The position numbers and the translations under genes are program-made. This document shows positions 1,822 through 61,729 of a stretch of 64,000 nt of DNA, piece after piece; within the stretch, counting starts at the first letter, position 1; every line of letters begins with the position of its first letter. Location: assembly GCA_035454885.1 (NCBI GenBank), contig DATIGE010000014.1, positions 1-64,000 of the forward strand, read 5' to 3'. Under the pieces are notes generated by a model that saw only the letters and a list, made by a program, of their open reading frames with translations, was not told where the DNA came from and did no database searches. Source of the stretch: a bacterium (GTDB taxonomy: Bacteria; UBA10199; JACPAL01; GCA-016699445).

Positions 1822-2478
1822 ATGAGCTCACTTTACCTCTCCACGGGCCAATCCCAGCTCCTCGCTCACGTCATGGCCTGGGGCAACCTTCGCGTCGCCG
1901 AGATCGCGGATGGTCCCTTCGCTTCCCCCCGGCTCAATCCACGCCAGAGCACCCAGTCTTTGATGCTCCCGTCCGCCATGGTGCTTCGTTACTTGGATCG
2001 GGTCAAGGGGCATGAATCGCGCCTCCTCACCGACCTCGGAATCGACGTGAAGGACCTGGAGCAGGAGGTCGCAAAGCCGGACGGGCCGTCGTTCAATCAC
2101 TACATTTGGGTCCGCAATCCCGCCTGGCTGGGCGGCGATTTGATAACCATGGCGCGCATCGCGATGGACGATCTTTGGCAGATCCGCCAGGCCCGGATCA
2201 ACATCCACGAGAGAATCATGCGATGGAAACGCATTTTCGGCGCCCAGGAAACCATGGATGCCCGGCCGAACGTCACCGGTCTCCAAAACCATCTGACCTG
2301 GCTTCAGGAAACCTACTCCGTGCGGCATTCCTATGCGAGCGATCTCATCCGGCACTTCAACCACGGCTGGGATCTCGTCCAGGCCTTTTACGACCCCGCC
2401 GCGAGGGCCGCGCAAAACATCCTGGAAGGCGGCCTGGCCCTCCAGCATTATTTGAAGGTTAAGGTCCCCCCCGTTTAG
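1822..2478 (+). CDS. Hypothetical protein, 218 aa
   Basis: The chosen ATG (MSSLYLSTGQ) has AGGAACGG just upstream; an earlier in-frame start at 1699 has no such support and would overlap the nfu promoter. The protein is soluble-looking, rich in Trp, His and Arg, with no signal peptide or membrane segment. The middle (NHYIWVRNPAWLGGDLITMA) and a largely helical second half (RQARINIHERIMRWKRIF, then an Asn/His/Trp-rich stretch) are the most distinctive parts. I do not recognise the family. The stop codon overlaps the cysA stop by 3 nt in a convergent arrangement. Confidence 0.7.
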   Translation: MSSLYLSTGQSQLLAHVMAWGNLRVAEIADGPFASPRLNPRQSTQSLMLPSAMVLRYLDRVKGHESRLLTDLGIDVKDLEQEVAKPDGPSFNHYIWVRNPAWLGGDLITMARIAMDDLWQIRQARINIHERIMRWKRIFGAQETMDARPNVTGLQNHLTWLQETYSVRHSYASDLIRHFNHGWDLVQAFYDPAARAAQNILEGGLALQHYLKVKVPPV

Positions 2479-3515
2479 GAAGTCCGATCAAAAACGTGCG
2501 CCCGCGTGACGTGCGTATAAACCCTCTTTCCCTCCTCAAACCCGCTCTGGTCGGCGACGCCCTTGGGAACGATCGCGTTCAGAACCGAGCCGTGCTCCAG
2601 CCGGATCGCCAGGGCCACGTTCGCGCCCAGGAACTGCACCGATTGAATCACGCCCGGCCAGCCCCCGTCCTCCCGGCGCGAGGCCACGTAGACGTCGCTC
2701 GGCCGGAAGAGGACGCTCGCGCGCGTGCCCTCTCTTAAATGAATCGCCTTGAATCGGAAGGGTCCCCACGCCACGGTGCCCTCCTCCACGACCCCTTCCA
2801 CGTGATTGGTCTCACCCACGAAGGACGCCACGAACGCCGTCGCCGGCCGGTCGAAGATCGCCTGAGGATGGGCCTCCTGCTCGATCTTTCCCTGATTCAC
2901 CACCAACACCCGGTCGGAAAGTTCGAAGGCTTCGTCTTGATCATGCGTCACCAGGAGAGAGGTCAGCCGGATACGGTCATGCAATTCGCGGAGCCATGCG
3001 CGGAGTTCCTTGCGCAAGCGCGCATCGAGGGCGCCGAAGGGTTCGTCGAGAAGCAAAAGCTGCGGTTCAGGCGCCAGCGCGCGGGCCAATGCCACACGCT
3101 GTCGCTGGCCGCCGGAGAGCTGCGACGGACGCCGATTCTCCATTCCTGAGAGGCCCACCAAATGAAGCAATTCCCGCGCCTTCTCGTGCCTCTCCTTTTT
3201 GCCGGCCCCGCGGACCCGGGGGCCGAAGGCCACGTTGTCCAGAATCGACATGTGCCGGAACAAGGCGTAATGCTGAAAGACGAACCCGATCTGCCGTTCC
3301 TGGACGGGCACATGCGTAACGTCTTGGCCGTTGATCTCGATCGATCCCGAGCCGGCTTCTTCGAGACCCGCGATGCAACGGAGGATCGTCGACTTTCCGG
3401 AACCCGACGGACCCAGCAGAGTGACGAACGCGCCGTCCGCCACCTGGAAGCTCACGTCGTCCACGGCCTGGAAACCGTTGAACCGCTTTTTCAGATTTTG
3501 AACCTTGATGCTCAT
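2475..3515 (-). CDS. cysA: Sulfate/thiosulfate ABC transporter ATP-binding protein CysA
   Basis: This 346-residue ATPase powers sulfate or thiosulfate import through CysT/CysW. Walker A is GPSGSGKST (35-43), the Q-loop is FVFQHYALF, the signature is LSGGQRQRVALARAL, Walker B is LLLLDEPFGALD and the switch is LLVTHDQDEA. The C-terminal ~110 residues form the TOBE-like regulatory domain seen in CysA. Two consecutive ATGs (3518, 3515) overlap the cysW stop codon; the second is better spaced from the GGGGAGGG ribosome site. It is the last gene of the porin-sbp-cysTWA operon. Confidence 0.95.
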   Translation of the reverse strand: MSIKVQNLKKRFNGFQAVDDVSFQVADGAFVTLLGPSGSGKSTILRCIAGLEEAGSGSIEINGQDVTHVPVQERQIGFVFQHYALFRHMSILDNVAFGPRVRGAGKKERHEKARELLHLVGLSGMENRRPSQLSGGQRQRVALARALAPEPQLLLLDEPFGALDARLRKELRAWLRELHDRIRLTSLLVTHDQDEAFELSDRVLVVNQGKIEQEAHPQAIFDRPATAFVASFVGETNHVEGVVEEGTVAWGPFRFKAIHLREGTRASVLFRPSDVYVASRREDGGWPGVIQSVQFLGANVALAIRLEHGSVLNAIVPKGVADQSGFEEGKRVYTHVTRAHVFDRTS

Positions 3516-4354
3516 CATCCCTCCCCGGATTTTCGGGTCCGCCATTGGACATAGGTCTTCACCACGAGGGTCACGACCGCCAGGACCGTCAGGATCGACG
3601 CCATCGCGAACGCGCCCACGAATTGATACTCGTTGTAGAGAATCTCCACATGCAGCGGGATCGTGTTCGTCAGCCCCCGGATGTGTCCCGACACCACGGA
3701 AACGGCCCCGAACTCGCCCATCGCGCGCGCGTTGAGCAGGATCACGCCGTACAGCAGTCCCCATTTGATGTTCGGCAGCGTCACGTGCCAGAAGGTCCGC
3801 CACCCGCCGGCTCCCAAGGTCAGCGCCGCTTCTTCCTGGTCGTTTCCCTGCACCTGCATGAGCGGGATCAGGGATCTTGCCACATAGGGAAACGTCACGA
3901 ACGTCGTCGCGAGGACGATCCCGGGCACGGCAAACAGGATCTTGATATCGTACCTGGCCAGCAACGGGCCCAGCGCCCCTTGCGCCCCGAAGAGCAGGAC
4001 AAAAATGAGACCCGAAATGACGGGCGAGACGGTGAAGGGAAGATCGATCAGCGTCGTCAGGAGCTTCTTGCCGGCGAAGTCGAACTTGGCGATGGCCCAC
4101 GAGGCCGCGATGCCGAACACCAGGTTGAAGGGAACGGAAATCGCCGCCGCGATCGCCGTGAGCTTGACAGCCGCCCGGGCATCGGGCTCGCTGACGGCTG
4201 CCCAATAGGCCGCCCAACCCTTGGCGAGGCCGCTCGATACGATCGTCGCCAGGGGAACGACCAGAACGATGCCGAGAAACGCCAACGCGGCCGCGATCAG
4301 GAGCATGCGGACCGGCCAGGGTTCCGTGACTTTAGGATTGGCCTGGGTGATCAT
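3515..4354 (-). CDS. cysW: Sulfate ABC transporter permease CysW
   Basis: A 279-residue inner-membrane permease with about six hydrophobic segments. The EAA loop that docks to CysA is visible as [22 protein letters not shown] (about residues 180-200). The pattern [18 protein letters not shown] is characteristic of the CysT/CysW family. With CysT it forms the heterodimeric channel for sulfate delivered by Sbp. Its start codon overlaps the cysT stop (ATGA), and its own stop overlaps the cysA start, so the three genes are translationally coupled. Confidence 0.95.
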
Positions 4355-5160
4355 GAACGCTCCATGCGTTGAAAGAGGCTGATGAGGGACAGCAGGACAA
4401 ACGAAGCCAGGAGCATCATCACGGCGATCGCCGCGGCCCCCGCGTAGTCGTACTGTTCGAGCTTGGTAATGATGAGCAGGGGCGTGATCTCGGTCTTCAT
4501 CGGCATGTTGCCCGCGATGAAGACGACCGACCCATATTCTCCCACCGCGCGGGCGAAGGCCGAGGTCATGCCCGTCAGGAGGGCCGGAAGGAGGGCCGGG
4601 AGAATCACCTTCGAGAAGGTCTGCCAGCGCGTCGCCCCCAGGCAAACGGCCGCTTCCTCGACATCGGGGTCCAACGCCTGCAGGACCGGCTGAACGGTCC
4701 GCACGACGAAGGGCAGTCCGATAAAGATCAGGGCGATCGTCACGCCCAACGGCGTAAACGCGGCCTTGATGCCGAGCGGATCGAGATATTTTCCCAGGAA
4801 CCCGTTCGGGGAATAGATCGTTGTCAGGGCGATGCCGGCCACGGCCGTGGGAAGGGCAAACGGCAAATCCACCAGCATGTCGATCAGGCCCTTGCCTGGA
4901 AACTTGTATCGCACCAGGACCCAGGACACCAAGAGCCCCAAAAGGCCGTTCACCAAGGCCGCGATCAACGACGCTCCGAAGGTGAGGCGGTAGGAGGCCG
5001 TCACGCGCGGGGACGCGGCAGCCTCCCAAAACGCCTGCCAGCTCAAGCCCGACGCCTTGAGGAAAAGCATCGTCAAGGGAATCAAGACGAGCAGGCTTAG
5101 ATAGAAGATCGTGTAGCCCAGGGTCAGACCGAAACCCGGAATCACGCTTTTAGTGCGCAT
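4351..5160 (-). CDS. cysT: Sulfate ABC transporter permease CysT (CysU)
   Basis: A 269-residue permease with six predicted membrane segments, starting [19 protein letters not shown]. The EAA motif region ([21 protein letters not shown]) and the family motif [18 protein letters not shown] are present. It pairs with CysW to move sulfate or thiosulfate across the inner membrane. The start lies inside the last codons of sbp (11-nt overlap). The longer frame that extends into sbp lacks membrane character before this Met, which supports the start chosen. Confidence 0.93.
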
Positions 5161-6268
5161 AGATTTGGTCAAAGAGACCTCCGTCGTTGAAAAACTTGGG
5201 TTGCGCCTGACTCCATCCGCCGAAGGCTTCGTCGATGGTGACCAAATTGAGTCTTGGAAATTTGGCGGCGTACTTCGCCGCCACCGTGGCTTCGCGCGGT
5301 CGATAGTAATGCCTGGCCGCGATCTCCTGTCCTTCCGGCGAATAGAGATAATCGAGGTAGGCCTTGGCGACGTCCTCGGTCTTATGCTTCGCGATGTTTT
5401 TTTCGACCACCGCCACCGGCGGCTCGGCCAGGATGGAAATCGACGGGACCACGATCTCGAACTTGTCCTTTCCCAATTCATTCACGGCCAGAAACGCCTC
5501 GTTTTCCCAGGCGAGCAGGACGTCTCCGATCCCGCGCTCCACAAAGGTCGTCGTCGAACCGCGGGCGCCGGAATCCAAGACCGGCACGTTCTTATAGAGC
5601 GCAGAGAGGAACTCCTTGGCCTTCGCCTCGTTTTCAGGGGCTCGCGTCGCCCCCTCCACCGGCAAAGCCGTTGGAGCCTCCCCCTCAACGCCCCTTCGGG
5701 GCTGGTTTGACGGATTTGTAGAGTTTCGTTGCAAGGCGGCGTAGGCCCAGGCGGCGAGGAAGTTCCACCTCGCTCCGCCGGAGGTTTTGGGATTCGGCGT
5801 GATCACGGCCATGCCGGGCTTGACCAGATCGTCCCAGTCCTTGATGGCCTTGGGATTTCCTTTGCGGACGAGGAAAACGATCGTGGACGTGTAGGGGGCA
5901 CTGTTGTTCGGAAGCTTCGCCTGCCAGTCCCTGGGAAGGAGACCCGACTTCTCGGCGATGGCGTCGATATCGTAGGCCAGCGCCAGTGTGACGACGTCGG
6001 CCTCAAGCCCGTCGATGACGGCGCGGGCCTGTTTGCCCGAACCGCCGTGCGATTGCTTGACCTCGACCGCCCCTCCGCCCTTCGACTGCCAATACTTGGA
6101 AAAGGCGGCATTGTAGTCCTGATAGAGCTCGCGGGTCGGGTCGTACGACACGTTGTAGAGGGTCACCGGGTCCGCAGCCTGCGCCTGCGGCAGGACCGCA
6201 ATCGCGAGTCCGAAGACCGAACCGAGGATCCAAAGGGCGTTGCGAATGATTGTTTTGATCCGTTTCAT
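5150..6268 (-). CDS. sbp: Sulfate-binding periplasmic protein Sbp, carrying an in-frame repeat insertion
   Basis: A 372-residue protein with a signal peptide ending near [20 protein letters not shown]. Family hallmarks are [12 protein letters not shown], the [14 protein letters not shown] block, and [28 protein letters not shown], which line the sulfate site. It captures sulfate and hands it to CysTW. Between AALQRN and NEAKAKEF there are about 28 extra residues ([16 protein letters not shown] and following) absent from typical Sbp proteins. They come from a 73-nt repeat at 5635-5707. The frame stays open, and the insertion sits between conserved blocks, probably in a surface loop, so the protein may still work. 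Confidence 0.93.
5635..5707 (-). repeat. 73-nt palindromic repeat, copy A, inserted in frame in sbp
   Basis: The element matches 38768-38840 at 68 of 73 positions with no gaps. It contains three potential hairpins, read on the plus strand: GGGGC-TCGCGTC-GCCCC, then CCACCGGC-AAA-GCCGTTGG (one mismatch), then CCCC-TTC-GGGG. The substitution A..T in copy A versus G..C in copy B falls on paired positions of the middle stem, so pairing is kept. Both copies are translated in the same frame as [12 protein letters not shown]-x-ALP-x-EGATRAP. This behaviour resembles the Rickettsia palindromic elements that invade coding genes, though the sequence itself is one I do not recognise. Confidence 0.85.
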
Positions 6269-6280
6269 TTTCGTATCTCC

Positions 6281-7520
6281 TTAAAACGCGACTTCCAGCC
6301 GCGTTTGAACGACCTTCTCGCTCGGACGGTCGGCCCCCGCGGCCGCGCCGCCGGCGAAAAGGGTGTGCTCGTAGTCGAGCACGGCCTTCACGTTGTCGTT
6401 CAGGTACCAGTTGACCCCGCCCGCGAAGGCGCGCGCGCGCCGCGCGGAAGCGTTCGGGTCGGCGAAGTTCGGAAAGACGTCGTCGTCCACCCGAAGCTCG
6501 TTGTAACGGGCCGCGATCTCCACCGCGCCCCACCTGCCTTCGGAAGGCTTGATCGGATTCCTCGGCTTCACGCCCTTGTAGGACGCCTTTTCCCCGGTGA
6601 GCACGAACGAGACTGCCGTCTGCCAGGCCTGGTGGGTGAAGTCCTCCTGCCCGTTGTTGTTCGTCACTTCCTGCGTGGAACGGACGTATTCCCCCAGAAA
6701 CCCGAACGGGCCCCAGTAATAGGTGGTCTGTGGCGCCAGTCGGAAGACCTTGCCGGAGGCGACGGTGACGTTGGGTGTCGCCGTGTCGTTGACGTAGCGG
6801 AAGAACGTCGACTGGCCCGCGGTCTTGAAATTGGGCAGGTTGGGCGAGGCCGCGCTGCCCTTCTGCTTGCCGAAGGTGCCGGCGAAACCTATGCCGAAAC
6901 CTTTTATTTGGGCGAAGATCCGTCCCGCCACATCCTTGCCGTCGTTGTTGTCGCCGTCAGTGCTGCCGCCGTCAAAGACGCCGCTGAACGCGCCCAACGC
7001 GTACTTCACCACGCCGCCGGAGACATCTCCAAAGAGCTGGAAACCCAGGTCGCGGTTCGGGACCAGGTTGGTCGGAAGCGCGCGCTCCACGAAGAGCAGG
7101 TTGTTGGCCGATTGGAGGCGCTCGAGACCGACGGGCTCCTTGAACTTGCCGCCGCGCAGCTTGATCTCAGGGAGGAAGCGGATATCGACGTAGCCGTCCT
7201 GAAGGGTCGCCGACCCGCCGCCGAAATCGGGAACGATGCGGATCCCGAACCGGTCGAACACTTGAGCTTCAATGATGGGCCGCAAGCGCCGCGCGACGAA
7301 CGTGTTGTTGCCCAGGTTCAGCGGCAGGTCGATGAAGAACCGGCCGTCGGCCTGGACGAGGCCGCGGACCTTCAGCCAGAACCTCCCCTCACCGGATTGG
7401 ATCTTGAATCCGTCCTTGCCGGCGGTGACGAAGGCTGACTCCTCGGCGAAAGAAAAAGATCCGCCGCTAAAAGTGAGCGCGGCGATGAGAATTGCAAAGT
7501 AACCTCCGATAAGTTTTCAC
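6281..7520 (-). CDS. Phosphate-selective (OprO/OprP-type) anion porin, with apparent +1 frameshift at its start
   Basis: The main frame encodes an outer-membrane barrel of the OprO/OprP type: PDFGGGSATLQDGYVDIRF, LPEIKLRGGKFKEPVGLERL, a final strand ending in VQTRLEVAF with C-terminal Phe. The in-frame start available (TTG, 7285) would discard the first ~80 residues. Upstream, the conserved protein continues as FWLKVRGLVQADGRFFIDL, preceded by a good signal peptide (YFAILIAALTF...SFAEE). That segment joins the well-placed GTG at 7520 (AAGGAG, 6-nt gap) only if the run of four A at 7514-7517 is read as three. Either an assembly/sequencing error or a real slippage site is possible. It probably admits sulfate or phosphate into the periplasm for Sbp. 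Confidence 0.8.
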
Positions 7521-7563
7521 GGTCATCTCCTTAAGTTTTGATTGTGTGGAAAAAAGAGACTAG

Positions 7564-7663
7564 GTGTAGGCCGGCGGCCGCGGGACTTAAGGATTTGAGT
7601 CTGTTTTCAGGAACTTACGAAGAGACCTTCACCCTTTAGACCCGCGCCGCCGGCCGCATACAC
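7564..7663 (-). promoter_or_regulatory. Long GC-rich hairpin overlapping the leader-peptide end (putative attenuator)
   Basis: The arms at 7641-7663 and 7564-7584 pair as 5 bp (GTGTA), a 3-nt bulge, 10 bp (GGCCGGCGGC), a 1-nt bulge and 5 bp (GCGGG), with about 56 nt between them. The upstream arm, in transcript order, is the last seven or eight codons and stop region of the leader peptide, including its fifth Cys codon. A ribosome stalled at Cys codons or at the stop would therefore change whether the stem forms. A run of T follows the second arm after about 13 nt (7551-7556 in plus coordinates), too far for a textbook intrinsic terminator. Confidence 0.55.
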
Positions 7664-7731
7664 ATGGGCCGACAACAGCCACAGGGGCTGTTTTCGCAGC
7701 GGACAAAGATGTGAAGCTCAAAGGAATGCAT
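7636..7731 (-). CDS. Cys-rich 31-residue leader peptide of the sulfate-uptake operon
   Basis: A short ORF, ATG at 7731 to TAA at 7636, encodes 31 residues with five cysteines (12, 17, 19, 20, 24), concentrated in the segment CENSPCGCCRPMCMRP. It lies between a good promoter and the porin-sbp-cysTWA genes and overlaps one arm of a long hairpin. Cysteine-rich leader peptides that sense cysteinyl-tRNA supply through ribosome stalling are established upstream of sulfur genes in actinobacteria. The same role here is inferred from position and composition. The ribosome site is weak (AAAGAA), and the predicted 5' leader is only about 10-15 nt. Confidence 0.6.
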   Translation of the reverse strand: MHSFELHIFVRCENSPCGCCRPMCMRPAARV

Positions 7732-7748
7732 GACTAATTTCTTTATCG

Positions 7749-7777
7749 ACGATAACGGCCGCTTAGTTGCGCGTCAA
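7749..7777 (-). promoter_or_regulatory. Sigma-70-type promoter of the leader/porin/sulfate-uptake operon
   Basis: On the minus strand, -35 TTGACG (7777-7772) and -10 TATCGT (7754-7749) are separated by exactly 17 bp. Transcription would start near 7742, immediately upstream of the Cys-rich leader peptide. It sits in the short gap after cysK, so the uptake genes can be expressed apart from cysE-cysK. Confidence 0.6.
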
Positions 7778-7806: not shown

Positions 7807-8754
7807 TCAAACGATGCCTTCGTACAGGGCGCTGGAGAGATAGCGCTCGCCGGAATCCGGCAGGATCGTGACGATGGTCTTGCCCGGATTTTCCTTGCCC
7901 AGCCGCAAGGCGGCGATGAGGGCGGCCCCGCAGGAAATCCCGCTGACGATCCCCTCTTCCTTCGCCAGCCGCCGCGCCATCTCCATGGATTCGGCGCTCG
8001 TGACCTGCTCCACGCGGTCGACGATCGACAGATCGAGATTCTTGGGAACGAAGCCCGCCCCGATGCCCTGAATCTTGTGCGGGCCGGGCTTGACCTCCTG
8101 CTTGTTCATCGTCTGCGTGATCACCGGGCTCTCGACCGGCTCGACCGCCACCGACAGGATCTTTTTCTTCATCTGATGCTTGATATACCGGCTCACGCCC
8201 GTGATGGTGCCGCCCGTGCCGACGCCCGAGATGAGGATGTCGATGCCCCCGCCCGTATCCTCCCAGATTTCAGGACCCGTCGTCTTTTCATGAATGTCCG
8301 GATTGGCGGGATTTTCGAACTGCTGCATCAGGACGTAATGCCCGGGATCGCTCTCGTAGATCTCCTTGGCCTTGGCGATCGCCCCGGGCATGCCCTTGGT
8401 GCCTTCGGTCAAAACCAGCTCGGCGCCGAAGATCTTCAGCAATTTACGCCGTTCCAGGCTCATGGTTTCCGGCATCGTCAGCGTCAACGGATAGCCCCGG
8501 GAGGCCGCCACGAAGGCCAGCGCGATGCCTGTGTTACCGCTGGTCGGCTCGACGATCCTCACGCCGGGCTTGAGCACGCCCCTCTTCTCCGCGTCCCAAA
8601 TCATGGCCGCGCCGATGCGGCACTTGACCGAATAGGCGGGATTTCGCCCTTCGATCTTGGCCAGGATCGTCGCCTTCGTGTCGTTGAGCCTGTTGATCCG
8701 GACCAACGGCGTCCTCCCGATCGACAGCGAATTGTCTTCATAGATATTTTTCAT
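7807..8754 (-). CDS. cysK: Cysteine synthase (O-acetylserine sulfhydrylase)
   Basis: A 315-residue PLP enzyme that makes cysteine from O-acetylserine and sulfide. The PLP lysine is Lys44 in [21 protein letters not shown] binds the substrate carboxylate, [10 protein letters not shown] holds the PLP phosphate, and GISCGAA is near the C-terminus. The start MKNIYEDNS is preceded by AAAGGGA; the longer in-frame extension runs into cysE and is rejected. cysE is 14 nt upstream, so the two enzymes, which form the cysteine synthase complex, are co-transcribed. Confidence 0.95.
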
Positions 8755-8768
8755 GTTCGTCCCTTTCG

Positions 8769-9605
8769 TCAGATGTCCCAATTGGGAATATATTGGATGG
8801 GTTTTTGAGTCTTGGTCGTGATCGTTTGGGGTTTCGCCAGAATCACCCTCGAGTCCGGAGGCACGAAATAAGTGATCCAAGAAGAGCCGCCGATGACGGA
8901 GCGGGCCCCGATGACCGTCTCTCCGCCGAGGATCGTCGCGTTGGAATACAGCACGACGTCGTCCTCGATCGTCGGATGCCTCTGCTTCGCGTCACCCCTG
9001 TTCTTCACCGAAAGGGAACCCAGGGTGACGCCTTGATAGATGGTCACGCGGTCGCCGATGACCGCCGTCTGCCCGATGACGACACCCGTCGCATGATCGA
9101 TGAAGAGGGCCTCGCCGATGCGGGCGTCCGGGTGGATGTCGCAACCCGTTAGCGAATGCGCATATTCGGTCATCATCCTGGGAATGAGAGGAACGCCGGA
9201 TCGCGACAACTCATGCGCGAGCCGGTAGGTCATGAGGGCCAGATAGCCGGGATACGTGAGAATGATTTCGTCGACGCCGCTCGCCGCGGGATCGCGTTCG
9301 TAGGCCGCGCGGGCGTCTTGAAGCAGCTTTTGCTTGATGACGGGGAGCTTCGCCATGAACTCGCCGGCCAGCGAATCGGCCCGACCCGGCCCATCGTCAA
9401 CGCCCGCCAGCGCGCGCTGAATCTGCAAAGTCAGCTCCCGGCGGCACGAAACCTCGATTTCCGGGAGGCGTTCGGCCGACGCCCCCTTCAGGAAATCCCG
9501 GTCCGAGGGCCGGTGATCCGGAAAAAGCAGGAACCACAATGCCTCCAGGCAGTCGGCGACCTTGTTTCGCTGCGGAAGCGTTGTCCGATGCGACGACTCC
9601 AGCAT
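8769..9605 (-). CDS. cysE: Serine O-acetyltransferase
   Basis: A 278-residue enzyme that acetylates L-serine with acetyl-CoA, the first step of cysteine synthesis. The N-terminal half is helical. The C-terminal left-handed beta-helix shows hexapeptide repeats, with the catalytic block [23 protein letters not shown] and GVTLGSLS. The protein ends in Ile (IPNWDI), the residue that in this family inserts into the CysK active site. It is directly upstream of cysK. The start is the ATG followed by [11 protein letters not shown]. Confidence 0.95.
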
Positions 9606-26890: not shown

Positions 26891-28624
26891 TTATACGCCC
26901 CCCGGCCTTTTCAATCGATCATAGAGTGTGCGCCTCCCCATCCCGAGCTTCCGCGCCGCCAGCGTCTTGTTCCCCCCCGCCTCGCGGAGCGCCTTCCGGA
27001 TCGTCTGCGCATTGGCGCGCCCGTGGCGTCCGGAGAGCCCGTGCGTCCGCATCTTTTGATAGAGCGTCACGCGCGAGACACCCAGGGCTTCGGCGGCCTG
27101 ACGCTTGTTCCCCTTCGCGTCTTCGAGGGCCTTCATCACGAGCCTCTTCTCCAGGGCCTTGAGGTTCCCCTCCAAACCCTGACCTTCCAGGATCAATCCC
27201 TTTTCCTGGGGAAGGGAAAGAATCTCCGGCGAGAGGAGTCCCGCGGTCACGTGCCCCTTGCCCAGGGCGAGACACCGGGTGAGCTCGTTTTGAAGCTCGC
27301 GGACGTTGCCCGGCCAATCGTAGTCACAGAGGAGCTTGAGCGCGCCGTCGTCGATGGAGACGAACTCGGGCGGAAGACCGAGGGCATTGTTTTTGAGAAA
27401 GTGCCGGACCAGGTCGGGGATGTCCTCGCGCCTCTCTCGGAGCGGCGGGAGGTTCATGCGGACGACGACGAGACGGTAGTAGAGGTCTTCCCGAAAACCC
27501 CCCTCGCGGACCATTTTTTGCAGATCCTTGTTGCTCGCGCAGACGACGCGCACGCCCACCTTGCGGGACTTGCTCGAACCCACCGGACGGATCTCTCCCT
27601 CTTGCAGGACGCGCAGGAGCTTGGCCTGCATCGCGGGGGTCGTTTCCCCGATTTCATCCAGAAAGACCGTCCCGCCGTCCGCCTCCTCGAAGAGGCCCCG
27701 CCGGTCGCGGTCGGCGCCGGTAAAGGCCCCGCGCACGTGCCCGAAGAGCTCGCTGTCCAGCAGCTGCTCGGAGAAGGCGGCGCAGTTGATCGCCAGAAAG
27801 GGTTTCTCCCGCCGCCTCGAATTCCGGTGGATGGCGCGCGCCACGAGTTCCTTGCCCGTTCCCGACTCGCCGTAAATGGAGACCGACGGCTCCGCGTCCT
27901 TGAGTCTTAAGATGGTTTTTTGGATCTCCCGGATCGCCTTCGAGTGCCCGATCATCCCTTCGAAACCCTTCGAGAAGGCGGCCGCCCCGGGCGCCGCGCC
28001 GAAACCTTCCAAGGTCTGCCGCGCCTGATCCCTCTCCCCTTCCGTGGCCGCCAGCCGGTCTTGGAGGGCCTCGTTTGCGACCGCCAACTGCCGCTGCAAC
28101 GCCTCCAACTCCCGCGCGTGGCGTTCGGAGGTCTCCAACGAATCGATCGCGGCCAGCGCGAGCGCGGCCTGGTCCGCAAAGAGCGTGACGAGCCGGACTT
28201 GATGTTCCTGAAAGGCCCCCTCGGTGAAACGGTTGTCGAGATACAGGGCGCCCAAAGGGACGCCCGCCTTGAGGATCGGCACGCAGAGGATGGAGCGGAG
28301 CTTCATCTTCATGACGCTCTCGGCGGCCTTGAGGCGTGCGTCCTCGGCCGCCTCCATCGAGAGCAGCGGCTCGCCCGTCTCCATCACCCGCTTCAAGACG
28401 GTCACGCTGAACTTCTCGTGGGCCTTCTTGAGGTCCTCGCGGTCGAAGCTCCGCGCGGCGGCGATCTCGAAACCGCCGGCCCGGTCCTGAAAAACGACGA
28501 AACCGCGCTCGGCCCCGGAGAGCCGGATCGCCTCGTCGAGCGTGAAATCGAGCATCTTTTGCTTTTGGCCCAGGGCGACCAGGGCCTTGTTGGTTTCGAG
28601 AAGCTTTAGGAGATCGTCGTTCAT
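26891..28624 (-). CDS. GAF-domain sigma-54-dependent activator with two Fis-type HTH domains
   Basis: A 577-residue enhancer-binding protein. Order: GAF sensor (about 20-165), coiled-coil linker (~165-220), AAA+ core with Walker A GESGTGKE, the sigma-54 contact loop GAFTGA, and Walker B GGTVFLDEIGE. Then come two Fis-type helix-turn-helix units: GNKRQAAEALGVSRVTLYQKM and, about 35 residues on, GNKTLAARKLGMGRRTLYDRL. There is no receiver domain, so the signal must enter through GAF or the kinase encoded 1 nt upstream. Two -24/-12 promoters lie nearby. The doubled HTH is unusual. Confidence 0.93.
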   Translation of the reverse strand: MNDDLLKLLETNKALVALGQKQKMLDFTLDEAIRLSGAERGFVVFQDRAGGFEIAAARSFDREDLKKAHEKFSVTVLKRVMETGEPLLSMEAAEDARLKAAESVMKMKLRSILCVPILKAGVPLGALYLDNRFTEGAFQEHQVRLVTLFADQAALALAAIDSLETSERHARELEALQRQLAVANEALQDRLAATEGERDQARQTLEGFGAAPGAAAFSKGFEGMIGHSKAIREIQKTILRLKDAEPSVSIYGESGTGKELVARAIHRNSRRREKPFLAINCAAFSEQLLDSELFGHVRGAFTGADRDRRGLFEEADGGTVFLDEIGETTPAMQAKLLRVLQEGEIRPVGSSKSRKVGVRVVCASNKDLQKMVREGGFREDLYYRLVVVRMNLPPLRERREDIPDLVRHFLKNNALGLPPEFVSIDDGALKLLCDYDWPGNVRELQNELTRCLALGKGHVTAGLLSPEILSLPQEKGLILEGQGLEGNLKALEKRLVMKALEDAKGNKRQAAEALGVSRVTLYQKMRTHGLSGRHGRANAQTIRKALREAGGNKTLAARKLGMGRRTLYDRLKRPGGV

Positions 28625-28625
28625 C

Positions 28626-31454
28626 TCAACCTCCCGCCATTCGTTCGAGAATTTTTTCGCGTTTACGGTCCCTCAAAAAGGCCTCGCGGGCCGCGTCCGG
28701 CATCCGGAGCGTGAGCGTATCGACGGCCTCCAGCGCCCGCTCGTAGCAGGCGCGGGCCTCCGTCGGGCACCCGCGCGCCTTGAGGAACTCCCCGCACTCG
28801 AACTCGCATTCCCAGCCCATCTGAAGGTTCTTTCCGTGCGAGAAGTGCCGGCAGGCGGCCTCGAGGGACTTCCACGCCTCTTCGTCGTTCTTCCGGTCGT
28901 GCGCCAGGACCTTCCCCAGGATGAGCCCCGCCTGCTTTTCCAGGTCCTCCGCGCGCGACCGGTGGGCGAGCGCCATCGCCTCGCGGGCATCAGCCTCCGC
29001 CTCGGACCACCCCCCCTTTGCTTCCCGAAAATAGGCCCGGTGAATGAGCGCCACGACCCTTTCAAAAGTCTGACCGGCCGCCTCGAGGACGAAGACCGCC
29101 TCCGAAAGCCTCTCCCCCTGCCGCCCGACGGCCCCCCGCTCGCCGTCGACCATCGCGAGCAGAAGGAGGGCCCGGCCCTGCGTCGGGAGATACCGGCGCG
29201 GCACCGAGAACCTTAAGGCCTCGCGGGCGAACGCCTCCGCCTGAAGGAGCCTCCCCTGATAAAAGGACAGGTTCGCGAGGTTCAGATACGCCTGTGCCGT
29301 GACGGAGTCGTGGCGCGTCCTCTTCAAGTGTTCGAGGCACTTTTGATAAAAGGTTTCGGCCGCGGGCCACTGGGCGGCGTCGAAGTTCAAATTCCCGAGA
29401 TTGAGGAGGGCGGCGCCCGCCAGGAGGTCCCTCGACACGGCCTCGTGCGCCGACGCGAGGGCGTGCCCGTAGAACCCCTCCGCGCCGCGGAAGTCGCCCA
29501 TCCTCTGCGCGAGGATGCCCAGGTGAAGAAGCGCCCGTGAGAGGACGTCAAAATCCCTTTCGGCCGAGGCCAGCGCGACCGCCCGGGTGAGTTGCTCCCG
29601 GTCCTCGGGGCTCCGTCCCTCGAAGAGGGCTGCCTTGCCGAGGGTCTCCAGGGCCGAGGCCTGCCCGCGCGCCGCCAGTCCCGAAATAAAGTCGGACGTG
29701 AGCAAGGCGCGAACCTCGGCGTACCGTCCCGCCCCCGCCAAGAGACGGGCCTTGGCCAGGGCCAAGCTCGGGGGAATTTCGCCGCCGTAGTGCCTTTCGA
29801 AGACGTCGAGCCCGTCTTCGTAGCGCCCCTCCTCGTCCAGCGTCCGAAAAAAGGCGTCCGGATCGGCCGGCGGGACCTCCGCTTCCCCGCCCTCCTCTTG
29901 CACGGAACGGTAGAGGATGCGGCCGCCGGAGAAAAATCTTTCCAGCCGCCTCGCCTGAAGGGCGTCGGCGACGGCCTCCTCCACCTCCGCGACCGACCAT
30001 CCCGTCCAGACTGCGAGCGTCTCCGCGTCCAGTGACACCTGGGCCTTCCCCAAGAAGGCGAAAAGCCTCTCGGACGGATCGTTGAGGGAGGTGGAGGGCC
30101 CCTCTCCCGCCGAAATCCTCCAGCCCAGGCCGTCGCGGACGATCTTTCCGCGGTTCACGAGGCTTCGTCCCTGCCGGACCAGTTTCCCGGGGCTTCCGCC
30201 GGCCGCCTCGCTCCAGGCATTGACGAGTGATGGGGGAATCCCGGGCAGGATTTTTTTCAACACCCTTTCGAGGGACGCGGGCTTCAGAGGCGTCAAGGCG
30301 ACGACATTCCCTTCCAGCGGGGCGTCACGGACGAAGAGAACGACCCGGGCTTGCAACCCCGGGGGCAAGGACAGGCGCCATGCCGCGACGGGACCGGCGT
30401 CCGCGTCGTCGATCAACAGGAACGTCTCCGGCGGGACAGCCGACGGCTCGGGCGCTTCCAGGACGATCCTGTCTCCGCGCAGGAAGAGCACGTCTTTCCG
30501 GAGCGACCAGAGCTCGCGCTCAAGCCAGCGCGCCAGGAACGTCTTGCCCGAACCCTCCTCTCCCCGGACGGTCCACGTCCCGGGTCCGTCCAAAATCCCA
30601 TCGAGCAAATCGCGGGCCTCCCGTTCCCTCAAAATCAGTCCGGCGTCCTCAAAGAGCGGAATCGGGACCGCACGGGCCGTCGGAGACGTTCCGCCCAGGG
30701 CCCCTCGAAGCCCCTCCAACGCGGCACGCGGCGTCTCCCAACGCTTTTGGGGATCGCGGTCGAGAAGCCTTTGGACGAACGGCGAAAGCTCCCCCGTCAC
30801 GGGCCGCGGATTCCCCTCCATCTGCCGGTTGAGGATGGCGACGGGGTCGTCGCCCTCGAAGGGCGGCCGGCCGGTCAGGGCTTCCGAGAGCAGGACTCCG
30901 ACGGAGTAGAGATCGCTCCGCGTGTCGATCCCGCGCCGGAGGGCGAATTCCGGGGCCGTGTAGGGAGGCGTGCCGAGCGCCTCGCCCGCGGGCGACCTCC
31001 CCATCACGGAGGCAAGCCCAAAGTCGATTAGCTTCACCTCGCGGCCGCGGGAGGGCGATTCGCGGACGAGGATGTTCTGGGGTTTGAGGTCCAGGTGGAC
31101 GACGTTCCGGAAGTACAGATAGTCCAGGGCCTCCAAGACCTGAAGAAAGAGCCAGACGATTTGATGGACGTCCAGGCCTCGGATCGCTTGGATCAAATTC
31201 TGGCCCTCGACGAATTCGCTCGCCAGGTAAGGCCGGCCGTCCTCCTCTCCAAAATCCTCGACGGAGGCGATGAAGGGATGCGCGAGCCCCGCCAGGGTTT
31301 GAAATTCGCGGTCGATGAGATCGGGGCGTTCTCGGGCCCACTCCGGAAAGAAGAGCTTTTGGGCGACCGGTCTCCCGCCGCGATGGAGATCCTTGCAAAG
31401 AAAGGTCTCCGCGGTCGCGCCCCGGCCCAACGGTCTCACCCGCTCATAGCGCAT
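28626..31454 (-). CDS. Ser/Thr protein kinase fused to P-loop ATPase and TPR-rich domain
   Basis: About 942 residues. The kinase (about 1-260) shows the glycine loop PLGRGATAETFL, VAQK at the ATP-lysine site, catalytic HLDLKPQN, IDFG and the APE loop TPPYTAPEFA. Next is an ATPase region with P-loop RGEEGSGKT and IDDAD as candidate Walker B, followed by a long alpha-helical TPR section (about 520-930), including LLNLGNLNFDAAQWPAAETFYQKCLEHLK. The plan recalls MalT/PknK-type signalling ATPases. It abuts the activator gene (1-nt gap), so the two probably act together. ATG 31454 is preferred over the adjacent TTG. Confidence 0.9.
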   Translation of the reverse strand: MRYERVRPLGRGATAETFLCKDLHRGGRPVAQKLFFPEWARERPDLIDREFQTLAGLAHPFIASVEDFGEEDGRPYLASEFVEGQNLIQAIRGLDVHQIVWLFLQVLEALDYLYFRNVVHLDLKPQNILVRESPSRGREVKLIDFGLASVMGRSPAGEALGTPPYTAPEFALRRGIDTRSDLYSVGVLLSEALTGRPPFEGDDPVAILNRQMEGNPRPVTGELSPFVQRLLDRDPQKRWETPRAALEGLRGALGGTSPTARAVPIPLFEDAGLILREREARDLLDGILDGPGTWTVRGEEGSGKTFLARWLERELWSLRKDVLFLRGDRIVLEAPEPSAVPPETFLLIDDADAGPVAAWRLSLPPGLQARVVLFVRDAPLEGNVVALTPLKPASLERVLKKILPGIPPSLVNAWSEAAGGSPGKLVRQGRSLVNRGKIVRDGLGWRISAGEGPSTSLNDPSERLFAFLGKAQVSLDAETLAVWTGWSVAEVEEAVADALQARRLERFFSGGRILYRSVQEEGGEAEVPPADPDAFFRTLDEEGRYEDGLDVFERHYGGEIPPSLALAKARLLAGAGRYAEVRALLTSDFISGLAARGQASALETLGKAALFEGRSPEDREQLTRAVALASAERDFDVLSRALLHLGILAQRMGDFRGAEGFYGHALASAHEAVSRDLLAGAALLNLGNLNFDAAQWPAAETFYQKCLEHLKRTRHDSVTAQAYLNLANLSFYQGRLLQAEAFAREALRFSVPRRYLPTQGRALLLLAMVDGERGAVGRQGERLSEAVFVLEAAGQTFERVVALIHRAYFREAKGGWSEAEADAREAMALAHRSRAEDLEKQAGLILGKVLAHDRKNDEEAWKSLEAACRHFSHGKNLQMGWECEFECGEFLKARGCPTEARACYERALEAVDTLTLRMPDAAREAFLRDRKREKILERMAGG

Positions 31455-38637: not shown

Positions 38638-40130
38638 CGATGACCTCCCACCAGAGCGGCGGCCATCTGAAGAGGCCGGTCAAGCCAAGAGGGGATGTAA
38701 ATCCCGAGGAGGAAAACGGAGAGGAGCAGGACGCAGGGAGTCAGTGTCGTGAGCCATGGCTCGATCACAGGGGCTCGCGTCGCCCCCTCCGTCGGCAAAG
38801 CCGCCGGAGCCTCCCCCTCAACGCCCCGTCGGGGCTGGTTCTCTGCCGGCTCCCCTTGAGTCATCGAGAGGACGATGCGCCCCATCCCGACAAAAATGAG
38901 GGCGAGAAATCCCAGAAACAGCGCGACCACCGTCCAGTGGCCGTCATTCACGGCCGATCGCAGAATCGTAAATTCGCTCACGAAAATCCCGAACGGAGGA
39001 GAGCCGGTGATCGCGATGAATCCGGCCATGAAGAGGGCTCCGGACAGCGGCAATCGGCGGAAGACCCCCTGAACGGACGAGACGGATTTGCTCCGGTAAT
39101 GCCGGTGAATATTGCCGGCCGTCAGGAACAGGACGCCTTTCGCCAAACCATTGCTTAACAGATGGAGAAGGGCCCCGTAGATCGCCAATCCCCCGAGGCC
39201 CAACGCCAACGTCAAGATCCCCATGTGCTCCACGCTTGAATAGGCCAGCATGCGTTTGTAATCTTCTTGGCCCAGCATGAAGACGGCGGCGACCCCCATG
39301 GAGAGAAGTCCGATCATAACGAAAAGAGGCCGCGCAAAATCGGCTTGCTGGGCCGCCTGACAGACCTGGTTGATGCGAAACAACGCCAGGAACGCACAGC
39401 TGGTCAAAGCCCCGGCCAGAAGAAAACCCACGAGTCCCGGCGCTTCTCCATAGGCATCCGGCTTCCAGGTGTGCATGGGCGCGAGGCCCATTTTTGTACC
39501 GTATCCCACGAGGAGAAAGATAAAGGACGCCCGGAGCCAAGGGACCGAAAACGAGGCGCCATGTTGAAGCATCGTCGGGAGAAAGAGCGGGTTTTCAACC
39601 GGGCCGGCGGCCGTCTCGGCCATGGCGAGAAAAAAAGTCCCCAGAAGGGCCAGCGCGATCCCCACCGAACAGATGATGAGATATTTCCAGGTGGCTTCCA
39701 GAGACCGCTGGTTGTGATTGAAATAGAGAAGCGGAGCGGAGGCCAGCGTCGTCGCTTCAAGAGCGACCCAGAGGAGGCCGAAATGATGGCTGAGGGTGAC
39801 GACCGTGACCGCGGAGAGGAAGAAAAGGAGGGAGGCGACGAAGTTCCTGTTATTCCGCTCCAACCGTTGCTTCAAATATCCGACGGCATAAAGAGAGGCC
39901 CCCAGGAACAGCAGACTGATGAGGCCCAAGACGATTTTCCCCATGGCATCGAGCAGGAGCCACCGGCCCAACGTGGGGAAGGAACCGGAAACCCAAAGCC
40001 AGGAGACCGTGACCGCGTGAACAACAGCGATCGGCACAAGGATCCATGGCCTTTTTCCGTTGTCTTTGATGGCGAAGGCAAGGCCCGCACCCAGGAGCGG
40101 AATCGTGATTAAGAGCAGGAGAGCGAGCAT
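38634..40130 (-). CDS. Ehr complex antiporter-like membrane subunit (HyfF/NuoN-like), carrying an in-frame repeat
   Basis: A 498-residue membrane protein with about 13 hydrophobic segments. Motifs typical of Mrp/NuoN-type subunits include YGTKMGLAPMHTWKPDAY (conserved Lys and His), LGQEDYKRMLAYSSVEHMG and LAKGVLFLTAGNI. The loop before the last membrane segments contains [16 protein letters not shown] and following residues, encoded by a 73-nt repeat that also occurs in sbp. The frame is open throughout. It probably conducts H+ or Na+. Confidence 0.88.
   Translation of the reverse strand: MLALLLLITIPLLGAGLAFAIKDNGKRPWILVPIAVVHAVTVSWLWVSGSFPTLGRWLLLDAMGKIVLGLISLLFLGASLYAVGYLKQRLERNNRNFVASLLFFLSAVTVVTLSHHFGLLWVALEATTLASAPLLYFNHNQRSLEATWKYLIICSVGIALALLGTFFLAMAETAAGPVENPLFLPTMLQHGASFSVPWLRASFIFLLVGYGTKMGLAPMHTWKPDAYGEAPGLVGFLLAGALTSCAFLALFRINQVCQAAQQADFARPLFVMIGLLSMGVAAVFMLGQEDYKRMLAYSSVEHMGILTLALGLGGLAIYGALLHLLSNGLAKGVLFLTAGNIHRHYRSKSVSSVQGVFRRLPLSGALFMAGFIAITGSPPFGIFVSEFTILRSAVNDGHWTVVALFLGFLALIFVGMGRIVLSMTQGEPAENQPRRGVEGEAPAALPTEGATRAPVIEPWLTTLTPCVLLLSVFLLGIYIPSWLDRPLQMAAALVGGHR
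38768..38840 (-). repeat. 73-nt palindromic repeat, copy B, inserted in frame in the HyfF-like gene
   Basis: Identical to 5635-5707 at 68 of 73 positions, same orientation relative to the host gene and same reading frame. The middle stem reads CCGTCGGC-AAA-GCCGCCGG. Compared with copy A the third base pair changes from A-T to G-C, preserving pairing, while the neighbouring mismatch is retained. The peptide lies in a loop between membrane helices, where extra residues can be tolerated. Confidence 0.85.
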
Positions 40131-61349: not shown

Positions 61350-61410
61350 AGTCCCCTCTATTGTAGGACCTCCTCATTTTTGTCGAACACTATTCATTTC
61401 AAAGGCGTAA

Positions 61411-61429
61411 AATCACCTTCGAGGTGATT
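61411..61429 (+). promoter_or_regulatory. Hairpin masking the ribosome site of the 98-residue gene
   Basis: AATCACCT-TCG-AGGTGATT is a perfect 8-bp stem with a three-base loop, ending 3 nt before the ATG at 61433. The Shine-Dalgarno GAGGTG is inside the stem, so translation may depend on melting or a ligand. Inference from pairing alone. Confidence 0.5.
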
Positions 61430-61432
61430 CCC

Positions 61433-61729
61433 ATGAACGGCCGGATTTTCGTCCTGTGCGCTTTGGTCTTGGGTCTCCTGGGCCTTTTTTTCGCGGCGAC
61501 GGCGATGGAGGCGCGTGAGACTCGGGAGGACACCGTGGAGGCGGAGAGAACGCTCGTCTATGATTACAAGAGCGGGACTTTCGTTCACGCGCACCGCCAT
61601 CGCCCCTCTCAGTACCGGCTCGGGACGCTCAAGATGGACGTCGGCTACGATGAGCAGATCTATCGGGCCAAAGACGCGTGGCCCTATGGCGTGACCCGAT
61701 TCCTCTTCAAACGGCCGCTCGACCAGTAG
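61433..61729 (+). CDS. Small exported or membrane-anchored protein, 98 aa
   Basis: An N-terminal hydrophobic segment (MNGRIFVLCALVLGLLGLFFAATAME) acts as signal or anchor, followed by a charged ~70-residue domain containing ERTLVYDYKSGTFVHAHRHRPSQYRLGTL, with several His. I recognise no family. The ribosome site lies in a hairpin. The 3' end overlaps the convergent phosphatase-type gene by 23 nt. Confidence 0.65.
   Translation: MNGRIFVLCALVLGLLGLFFAATAMEARETREDTVEAERTLVYDYKSGTFVHAHRHRPSQYRLGTLKMDVGYDEQIYRAKDAWPYGVTRFLFKRPLDQ

Follow-up and report, generated by a model that had tools for sequence, protein, structure and literature searches.

Attenuation in response to cysteine, through short leader peptides rich in Cys codons, is documented in actinobacteria and predicted for the cysteinyl-tRNA synthetase gene cysS in Rhodobacterales. 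A 2005 study predicted such leaders in actinobacteria but saw no conserved hairpins with them (Seliverstov et al.; PMC1262725), mycobacterial Cys short open reading frames (sORFs) were detected by ribosome profiling (Shell et al., 2015; PMC4633059), and polycysteine leaders have been described as cysteine-responsive attenuators (Canestrari et al., 2020, Mol Microbiol, as cited in PMC13236596). The uORFC-8-2 motif, reported before cysS in Rhodobacterales in 2021, is an upstream ORF with two Cys codons, stems, and a terminator (PMC8632094). No Cys leader on a sulfate-uptake operon outside Actinobacteria was found in the literature searched, which included few subscription papers. A preliminary description of the locus, reviewed here, stated that Cys attenuation leaders were known in actinobacteria and knew of none before a porin-sbp-cysTWA operon of this kind.

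The locus lies in a 64-kb stretch of bacterial DNA (the window), in which gene identities were assigned with Pfam and NCBIfam models. A leader ORF is situated between cysK, whose last codon ends at 7807, and an operon with the gene order porin-sbp-cysT-cysW-cysA, and all features are on the minus strand. The genes concerned are as follows:

Positions 2475 to 3545 (approximate 5' end), minus strand: cysA, sulfate ABC ATPase (TIGR00968).
Positions 3515 to 4360 (approximate 5' end), minus strand: cysW, sulfate permease (TIGR02140).
Positions 4351 to 5145 (approximate 5' end), minus strand: cysT, sulfate permease (TIGR02139).
Positions 5150 to 6268, minus strand: sbp, sulfate-binding protein (TIGR00971).
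Positions 6281 to 7498, minus strand: porin (Porin_O_P), in a frame that seems to be entered only via a +1 shift.
Positions 7807 to 8754, minus strand: cysK, cysteine synthase, upstream neighbour (TIGR01139).
Positions 8769 to 9605 (approximate 5' end), minus strand: cysE/EpsC-type serine O-acetyltransferase, upstream neighbour (NF041874 barely above cut-off; TIGR01172 under cut-off).

These calls bear out the sulfate-uptake operon with cysE and cysK adjoining that the preliminary description had recognized; the features of its layout are real, though it left their strand unstated. The sbp gene also carries, at 5636-5719 (minus strand), an in-frame insertion of ~28 residues that is not in relatives. 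It belongs to a dispersed repeat of which the genome has seven copies, 74-100% identical; the window contains this one and a second at 38760-38840 (minus strand).

The 31-codon ORF with five Cys codons downstream of a promoter, first noticed from the sequence alone, was confirmed, and the elements between cysK and the porin are these:

Positions 7749 to 7777, minus strand: sigma70-like promoter, TTGACG-17-TATCGT (9 of 12 matches); relatives have a similar promoter at the equivalent place.
Positions 7731 to 7636, minus strand: leader peptide ORF, 31 codons, MHSFELHIFVRCENSPCGCCRPMCMRPAARV, with Cys at codons 12, 17, 19, 20, and 24.
Positions 7641 to 7656, minus strand: 5' arm of the helix, CGGCCGGCGGCGCGGG, leader codons RPAAR (folding and covariation).
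Positions 7585 to 7593, minus strand: candidate anti-Shine-Dalgarno, UCCUUAAGU, adjoining the 3' arm and a 9-nt perfect complement of 7536-7528.
Positions 7569 to 7584, minus strand: 3' arm of the helix, CCCGCGGCCGCCGGCC (folding and covariation).
Positions 7528 to 7536, minus strand: Shine-Dalgarno region of the porin, ACUUAAGGA, with which the candidate anti-Shine-Dalgarno would pair.

The window leader begins with an ATG 17 nt past the -10 element, giving a predicted 5' UTR of ~10 nt. Promoters of relatives in the same class have the form TTGACA-17/18-TANNNN-8/9-ATG at a position equivalent to that in the window, so spaced that the ATG is 8-9 nt from the -10 in most of them; the distance is 6 nt in L041, an acidobacterial locus described below. 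Leaders with this short spacing, in the class relatives and in L041, would be leaderless or nearly so, like those of mycobacteria. Initiation close to the transcript start, as this spacing predicts for most of the relatives, would be one likeness to the mycobacterial polycysteine leaderless sORFs; others are the placing of a Cys-run sORF upstream of sulfur or cysteine genes and the sensing role ascribed to translation of the Cys codons. The present leader differs from them in lineage, in operon (porin-sbp-cysTWA), and in peptide.

Frequency was assessed with a fixed definition of a Cys-sORF (ATG-started, at most 45 codons, at least five Cys within 13 residues), which yielded 16 examples over sulfate loci totalling 1.68 Mb of strand. 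Four of the 16 are class-relative leaders before such an operon, a fifth is an acidobacterial leader preceding sbp, and the window leader is the sole example within its 64 kb. First-order Markov shuffles of the window intergenic region contained such an sORF in 20 of 20,000 cases. The window Cys leader is more than chance. Leader peptides matched nothing in NCBIfam or Pfam, and no named leader-peptide family was obtained.

A search for conserved Cys-rich short ORFs before sbp in relatives covered 46 genomes of the class, none from the window genome's own genus or family, and found homologous leaders, mostly of the form ACGCC(C)MC..PA, in four further genomes (G037, G032, G015, and G042). These are listed together with the leader of G008:

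G037, upstream of sbp: leader MHNELAQIIPSKNGACGCCCMCTQPAARWMSGFAVLS.
G032, upstream of sbp: leader MQIKPVQIVSSKNSACGCCCMCTQPALLRMSGFAVLNLNR.
G015, upstream of oscA-porin-sbp: leader MYQGFAQISLPTVGSMACCCAMCIEPASCGRSESNLS.
G042, upstream of oscA-porin-sbp: leader MTSSFAQFYPDSRCMACGRMAMCMQPTNTGWAM, with three Cys.
G008, upstream of porin-sbp: leader MSGHFTQTLLSKPYNTCCCRCCMCMCMCICI, with nine Cys.

The product of the small gene in G015 is of the DUF2292/OscA type, passing the Pfam cut-off but falling short of that of the NCBIfam OscA model, and the oscA-type gene of G042 was assigned by eye from sequence. A class-wide search with a profile of four leaders returned its members at E-values of 5e-22 to 4e-16, 13 orders of magnitude clear of the next best match (0.005), and found no further members in the class. 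Several other sbp loci of the class, among them both from the order of the window genome, are without a leader, which counts against the attenuator reading. Between G037 and G032, the block from Cys to Pro is almost constant and the remaining codons drift.

Leader codons 26-30 (CGGCCGGCGGCGCGG) make up the 5' arm of a helix downstream of the Cys run. The arms CGGCCGGCGGCGCGGG and CCCGCGGCCGCCGGCC form 15 bp with one bulge, GUGUA/UACAC extends the pairing to about 20 bp, and the outer end of the 3' arm lies 44 nt upstream of the GTG at 7520. Folding confirms the ~20-bp GC-rich hairpin that had been drawn from the last leader codons to an arm 44 nt before the porin start, and the leader region as a whole folds at z = -4.3, better than 200 of 200 shuffles. 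An alignment of five genomes, taken from the Cys run as far as the distal arm, shows a shared 8-bp helix, GCCGGCGG:CCGCCGGC, with 39 of 40 cells paired (97.5%), four pairs invariant, and three of the eight pairs altered on both sides. Sliding the partner by 1-3 columns reduces pairing to 18-58%, and the covariation score was matched by 2 of 500 control shuffles. Covariation across five sequences is support for the helix, not proof of it, and a covarying helix after the Cys run is a further difference from the mycobacterial leaders, which have no conserved hairpins (PMC1262725).

Two other accounts of this region bear on its interpretation. That the ORF is a chance frame and the hairpin a cysK terminator or a repeat is very unlikely; the hairpin does stand downstream of cysK with a U run ~8 nt beyond, but this run is not directly after the stem, no terminator was found, the leader and hairpin sequence is present in a single copy in the genome, and leader and helix are kept in genomes with different upstream genes. 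A metabolite riboswitch, suggested by a structured 5' region on a sulfur operon, is scarcely to be expected when the conserved parts are a peptide and one helix and when Rfam models, applied to the leader region and the whole window, match two tRNAs and nothing else. The uORFC-8-2 motif resembles the window leader as a Cys-codon upstream ORF with stems but differs in that it has two Cys codons, controls cysS, and occurs in Rhodobacterales only (PMC8632094), whereas the window has another gene context and gives no Rfam match. The window element has what is generally looked for in an attenuator, namely a Cys-run sORF before a sulfur operon, conservation of the peptide and its Cys codons, and, in five sequences, a covarying helix whose formation hinges on ribosome position. 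It is very probably a cis-acting, ribosome-mediated cysteine attenuator of the sulfate-uptake operon, and the cysteine-responsive leader proposed in the preliminary description is thus supported by conservation in relatives and by helix covariation.

The front edge of a ribosome lies ~15 nt beyond its A site. For the first four Cys codons, the footprint ends before 7656, so that a ribosome halted there would leave the 5' arm free and one that completes the leader would cover it. The preliminary description, in which stalling blocks the arm, had the correct type of mechanism with its sign largely reversed, its version holding for Cys 24 only. The leader, its conservation, the covarying helix, and the terminators of the other genomes are observed; the stalling, which way the switch turns, and the structure of the off state in the window genome are inferred, as follows. 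A ribosome would translate the 31-codon leader and, when Cys-tRNA is low, would stall at the Cys run (codons 12-20), leaving the RPAAR codons unoccupied. The 5' arm would then pair with the distal arm (7584-7569) in a long helix that would also hold the neighbouring UCCUUAAGU, with the operon start region more open and expression on. With ample cysteine, it would run on to the stop codon, cover the 5' arm, and free the distal segment for a repressive structure. This structure would be an intrinsic terminator in G008 and two Acidobacteriota; in the window it would most likely be a pairing of UCCUUAAGU with the porin Shine-Dalgarno ACUUAAGGA, and Rho might perhaps act on untranslated RNA in the off state.

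Neither a terminator scan nor folding revealed an intrinsic terminator between the window leader and the porin, and a translational or Rho-assisted platform is therefore the better guess. In classical trp/his-type attenuators, too, the regulatory codons precede helices that exclude one another, and the terminator of that type is present in G008 and the two Acidobacteriota; the window differs from the trp type in being without one. The 9-nt complement of anti-Shine-Dalgarno and Shine-Dalgarno was equalled in 24 of 20,000 shuffles. When the RNA left free by a ribosome at the stop codon is folded, UCCUUAAGU pairs with ACUUAAGGA; when that left by a stalled ribosome is folded, this pairing is absent and the Shine-Dalgarno pairs more weakly with GUCUCUUU. 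The predicted cost of opening the start region is 5.6 kcal/mol in the stalled state versus 8.2 kcal/mol at the stop, and that for the stretch from the Shine-Dalgarno to the GTG is 7.7-8.8 versus 9.9 kcal/mol, a climb of ~2-3 kcal/mol in the start-region cost from stalled to at stop. Alternative structures are thus predicted for the two states, but the Shine-Dalgarno is mostly paired in both and its pair probability does not separate them, which would make the translational switch modest. The off-state hairpin taken alone is not unusual (z -1.2). Folding suggests Shine-Dalgarno sequestration as the expression platform in the window, with a modest effect in the model.

Intrinsic terminators follow Cys leaders at three other loci, one in the class and two beyond it:

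L148:3195-3490 (G008): nine-Cys leader CCCRCCMCMCMCICI, then a terminator with eight U, then porin-sbp.
L041:4831-4911 (Acidobacteriota), before sbp: Cys leader MHFRAIPTPCLCCRCLCTASGPEDGM, with a terminator hairpin downstream (z -2.96).
L208:1185-1283 (Acidobacteriota), before sbp: Cys leader MIANVQKTTMCCRLCMCFMHGSFGREEMNKRG, with a terminator hairpin downstream (z -4.94).

The G008 terminator has a z of -4.95; cysT and cysW lie upstream of the leader in that genome and are divergent. L208 was chosen from the order of L041, and the Acidobacteriota leader-terminators, as read from their sequences, make a separate and cleaner case of cysteine attenuation. A strict terminator scan of the leaders gave no match except one within the L208 leader ORF; it also missed the hairpins of G008, L041, and L208, and larger-loop hairpins were judged by folding. 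No clear terminator was found by folding energy in G037 and G032. A terminator candidate at L146 was dropped after folding (z -0.17).

Among ~80 other sbp loci, no convincing Cys leader was found besides L041, and the leader profile gave chance-level matches only in Acidobacteriota, Deltaproteobacteria, and Gemmatimonadota genomes. Two Methylobacillus loci (L062 and L073) have very short Cys ORFs (MKCCSRKPC, MECHSRKHCLARC) ~100-145 nt before the porin, and these weak, 3-Cys ORFs may be further leaders. Comparative evidence thus supports cysteine attenuation of the sulfate-uptake operons of an uncultured class of bacteria, and in Acidobacteriota the Cys leaders come with textbook terminators. 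Because leaders occur in both groups, cysteine attenuation looks widespread and built on varied expression platforms.

The 44-nt distance from the hairpin to the porin start holds for the GTG at 7520. This start and the porin lie in different frames, which the preliminary description did not notice. The features at the start are as follows:

Positions 7518 to 7520, minus strand: likely porin start, GTG, with AAGGAG 6 nt upstream; translation in this frame gives VKTYRRLLCNSHRRAHF and then TAG.
Positions 7494 to 7508, minus strand: candidate programmed +1 frameshift site, CGGAGG-UUA-CUU-UGC, prfB-like, with a Cys codon in the A site.

The frame of the GTG encodes MKTYRRLL-CNSHRRAHF-stop. In the porin frame, by contrast, there is a stop codon at 7519 and the first ATG, GTG, or TTG comes no earlier than 7285, yet coding signal is present from about 7500. 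The porin is the one clear case of this kind among the 65 coding regions of the window, with 72 codons coding before the start (the next have 19 and 16). A +1 shift yields MKTYRRLL-AILIAALTFSGGSFSFA, a normal signal peptide like that of G015 (MRSHLRILLIAIFLSGLSFGAAEA).

Expression of prfB (RF2) needs a +1 shift. The window genome's own prfB has CGGAGG-CGG-CUU-UGA, which shares CGGAGG-NNN-CUUUG with the porin site and likewise serves a product that needs the shift; the porin site is this signal with UGA replaced by the Cys codon UGC. Within the genome, GGRGGNNNCTTTG has 14 occurrences and is followed by TGY once, at the porin; the site is also the sole GGRGGNNNCTTTGY, and it lies, in frame, within the 47 nt of overlap in which the shift would have to take place. 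Relaxed versions of the site have an expectation of 0.00015 in frame in this overlap, under a null that ignores the possibility that an insertion in the T run itself made CUU-U, and this number is therefore not used as a posterior. In common with the described prfB frameshift (PMC5009743), the porin site has a Shine-Dalgarno-like GGAGG 3 nt before CUU-U, a short zero frame, and a long +1 frame; it differs in that the A-site codon is UGC (Cys) and not the stop UGA, in that the gene is a porin, and in that the site is not conserved in the porins of class relatives.

One reading, to which somewhat less than even weight is given, is that the porin is made only by programmed +1 frameshifting at CGGAGG-UUA-CUU-UGC, a second cysteine sensor added to the leader. 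With Cys-tRNA scarce, a ribosome would pause with CUU in the P site and the UGC A site empty, slip to UUU, and read on through GCA-AUU-CUC into the porin signal peptide; with ample cysteine, UGC would be decoded and translation would end at codon 18, and polarity caused by porin mRNA left without ribosomes could reduce expression of the later genes as well. The porin frame without a start of its own near the beginning of its coding signal, the Shine-Dalgarno and GTG that open MKTYRRLL, the signal peptide of the +1 product, the matching prfB signal, and the uniqueness and position of the site all favour frameshifting. It is, however, confined to one genome, the porins of class relatives (which are from outside the window genome's genus and family) begin in frame, and much of the signal would arise if a single base were inserted in a T run within a signal peptide rich in Arg and Leu. 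Counts of Cys-codon prfB-like sites across the class are overall no higher than those of a reversed-pattern control, which indicates no general use of such sites.

Indels are a frequent fault of metagenome-derived assemblies. The chances are even that the porin start carries a plain indel, either an assembly error or a recent mutation, and that the leader alone regulates the operon; the frequency of such faults and the lack of conservation of the out-of-frame start fit this account. Against it are the other coding regions of the window, which hold no comparable case, the completeness of 100%, and the improbable coincidence of an indel with a prfB-like signal and a Cys codon. An improbable third account has the porin start at a rare AUU codon (7492), with no frameshift and with the GGAGG that lies 10 nt ahead of it in the porin frame as its Shine-Dalgarno; its product would not begin with the positive charges of a signal peptide, and the Shine-Dalgarno and GTG, which make a better pair, would be left functionless.

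The frameshift and indel readings concern the porin start only, and both are compatible with the leader attenuator. Should the frameshift be real, and it is put forward tentatively, the locus would have two cysteine sensors in series, the leader attenuator and a Cys-codon prfB-like frameshift, with porin made only when Cys-tRNA is scarce. According to a 2016 review, there were no known examples of hungry-codon frameshifting making starvation-specific proteins (PMC5009743). A true site would be a natural case of starvation-induced hungry-codon frameshifting used on purpose, answering a long-standing question, and a frameshift at a Cys codon would be a kind of control without earlier documentation in nature. 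Elsewhere in the window, coding signal extends 16 and 19 codons ahead of the first start codon at 26894-28672 (minus strand) and 61367-61729 (plus strand), respectively, which may be noise or unusual starts.
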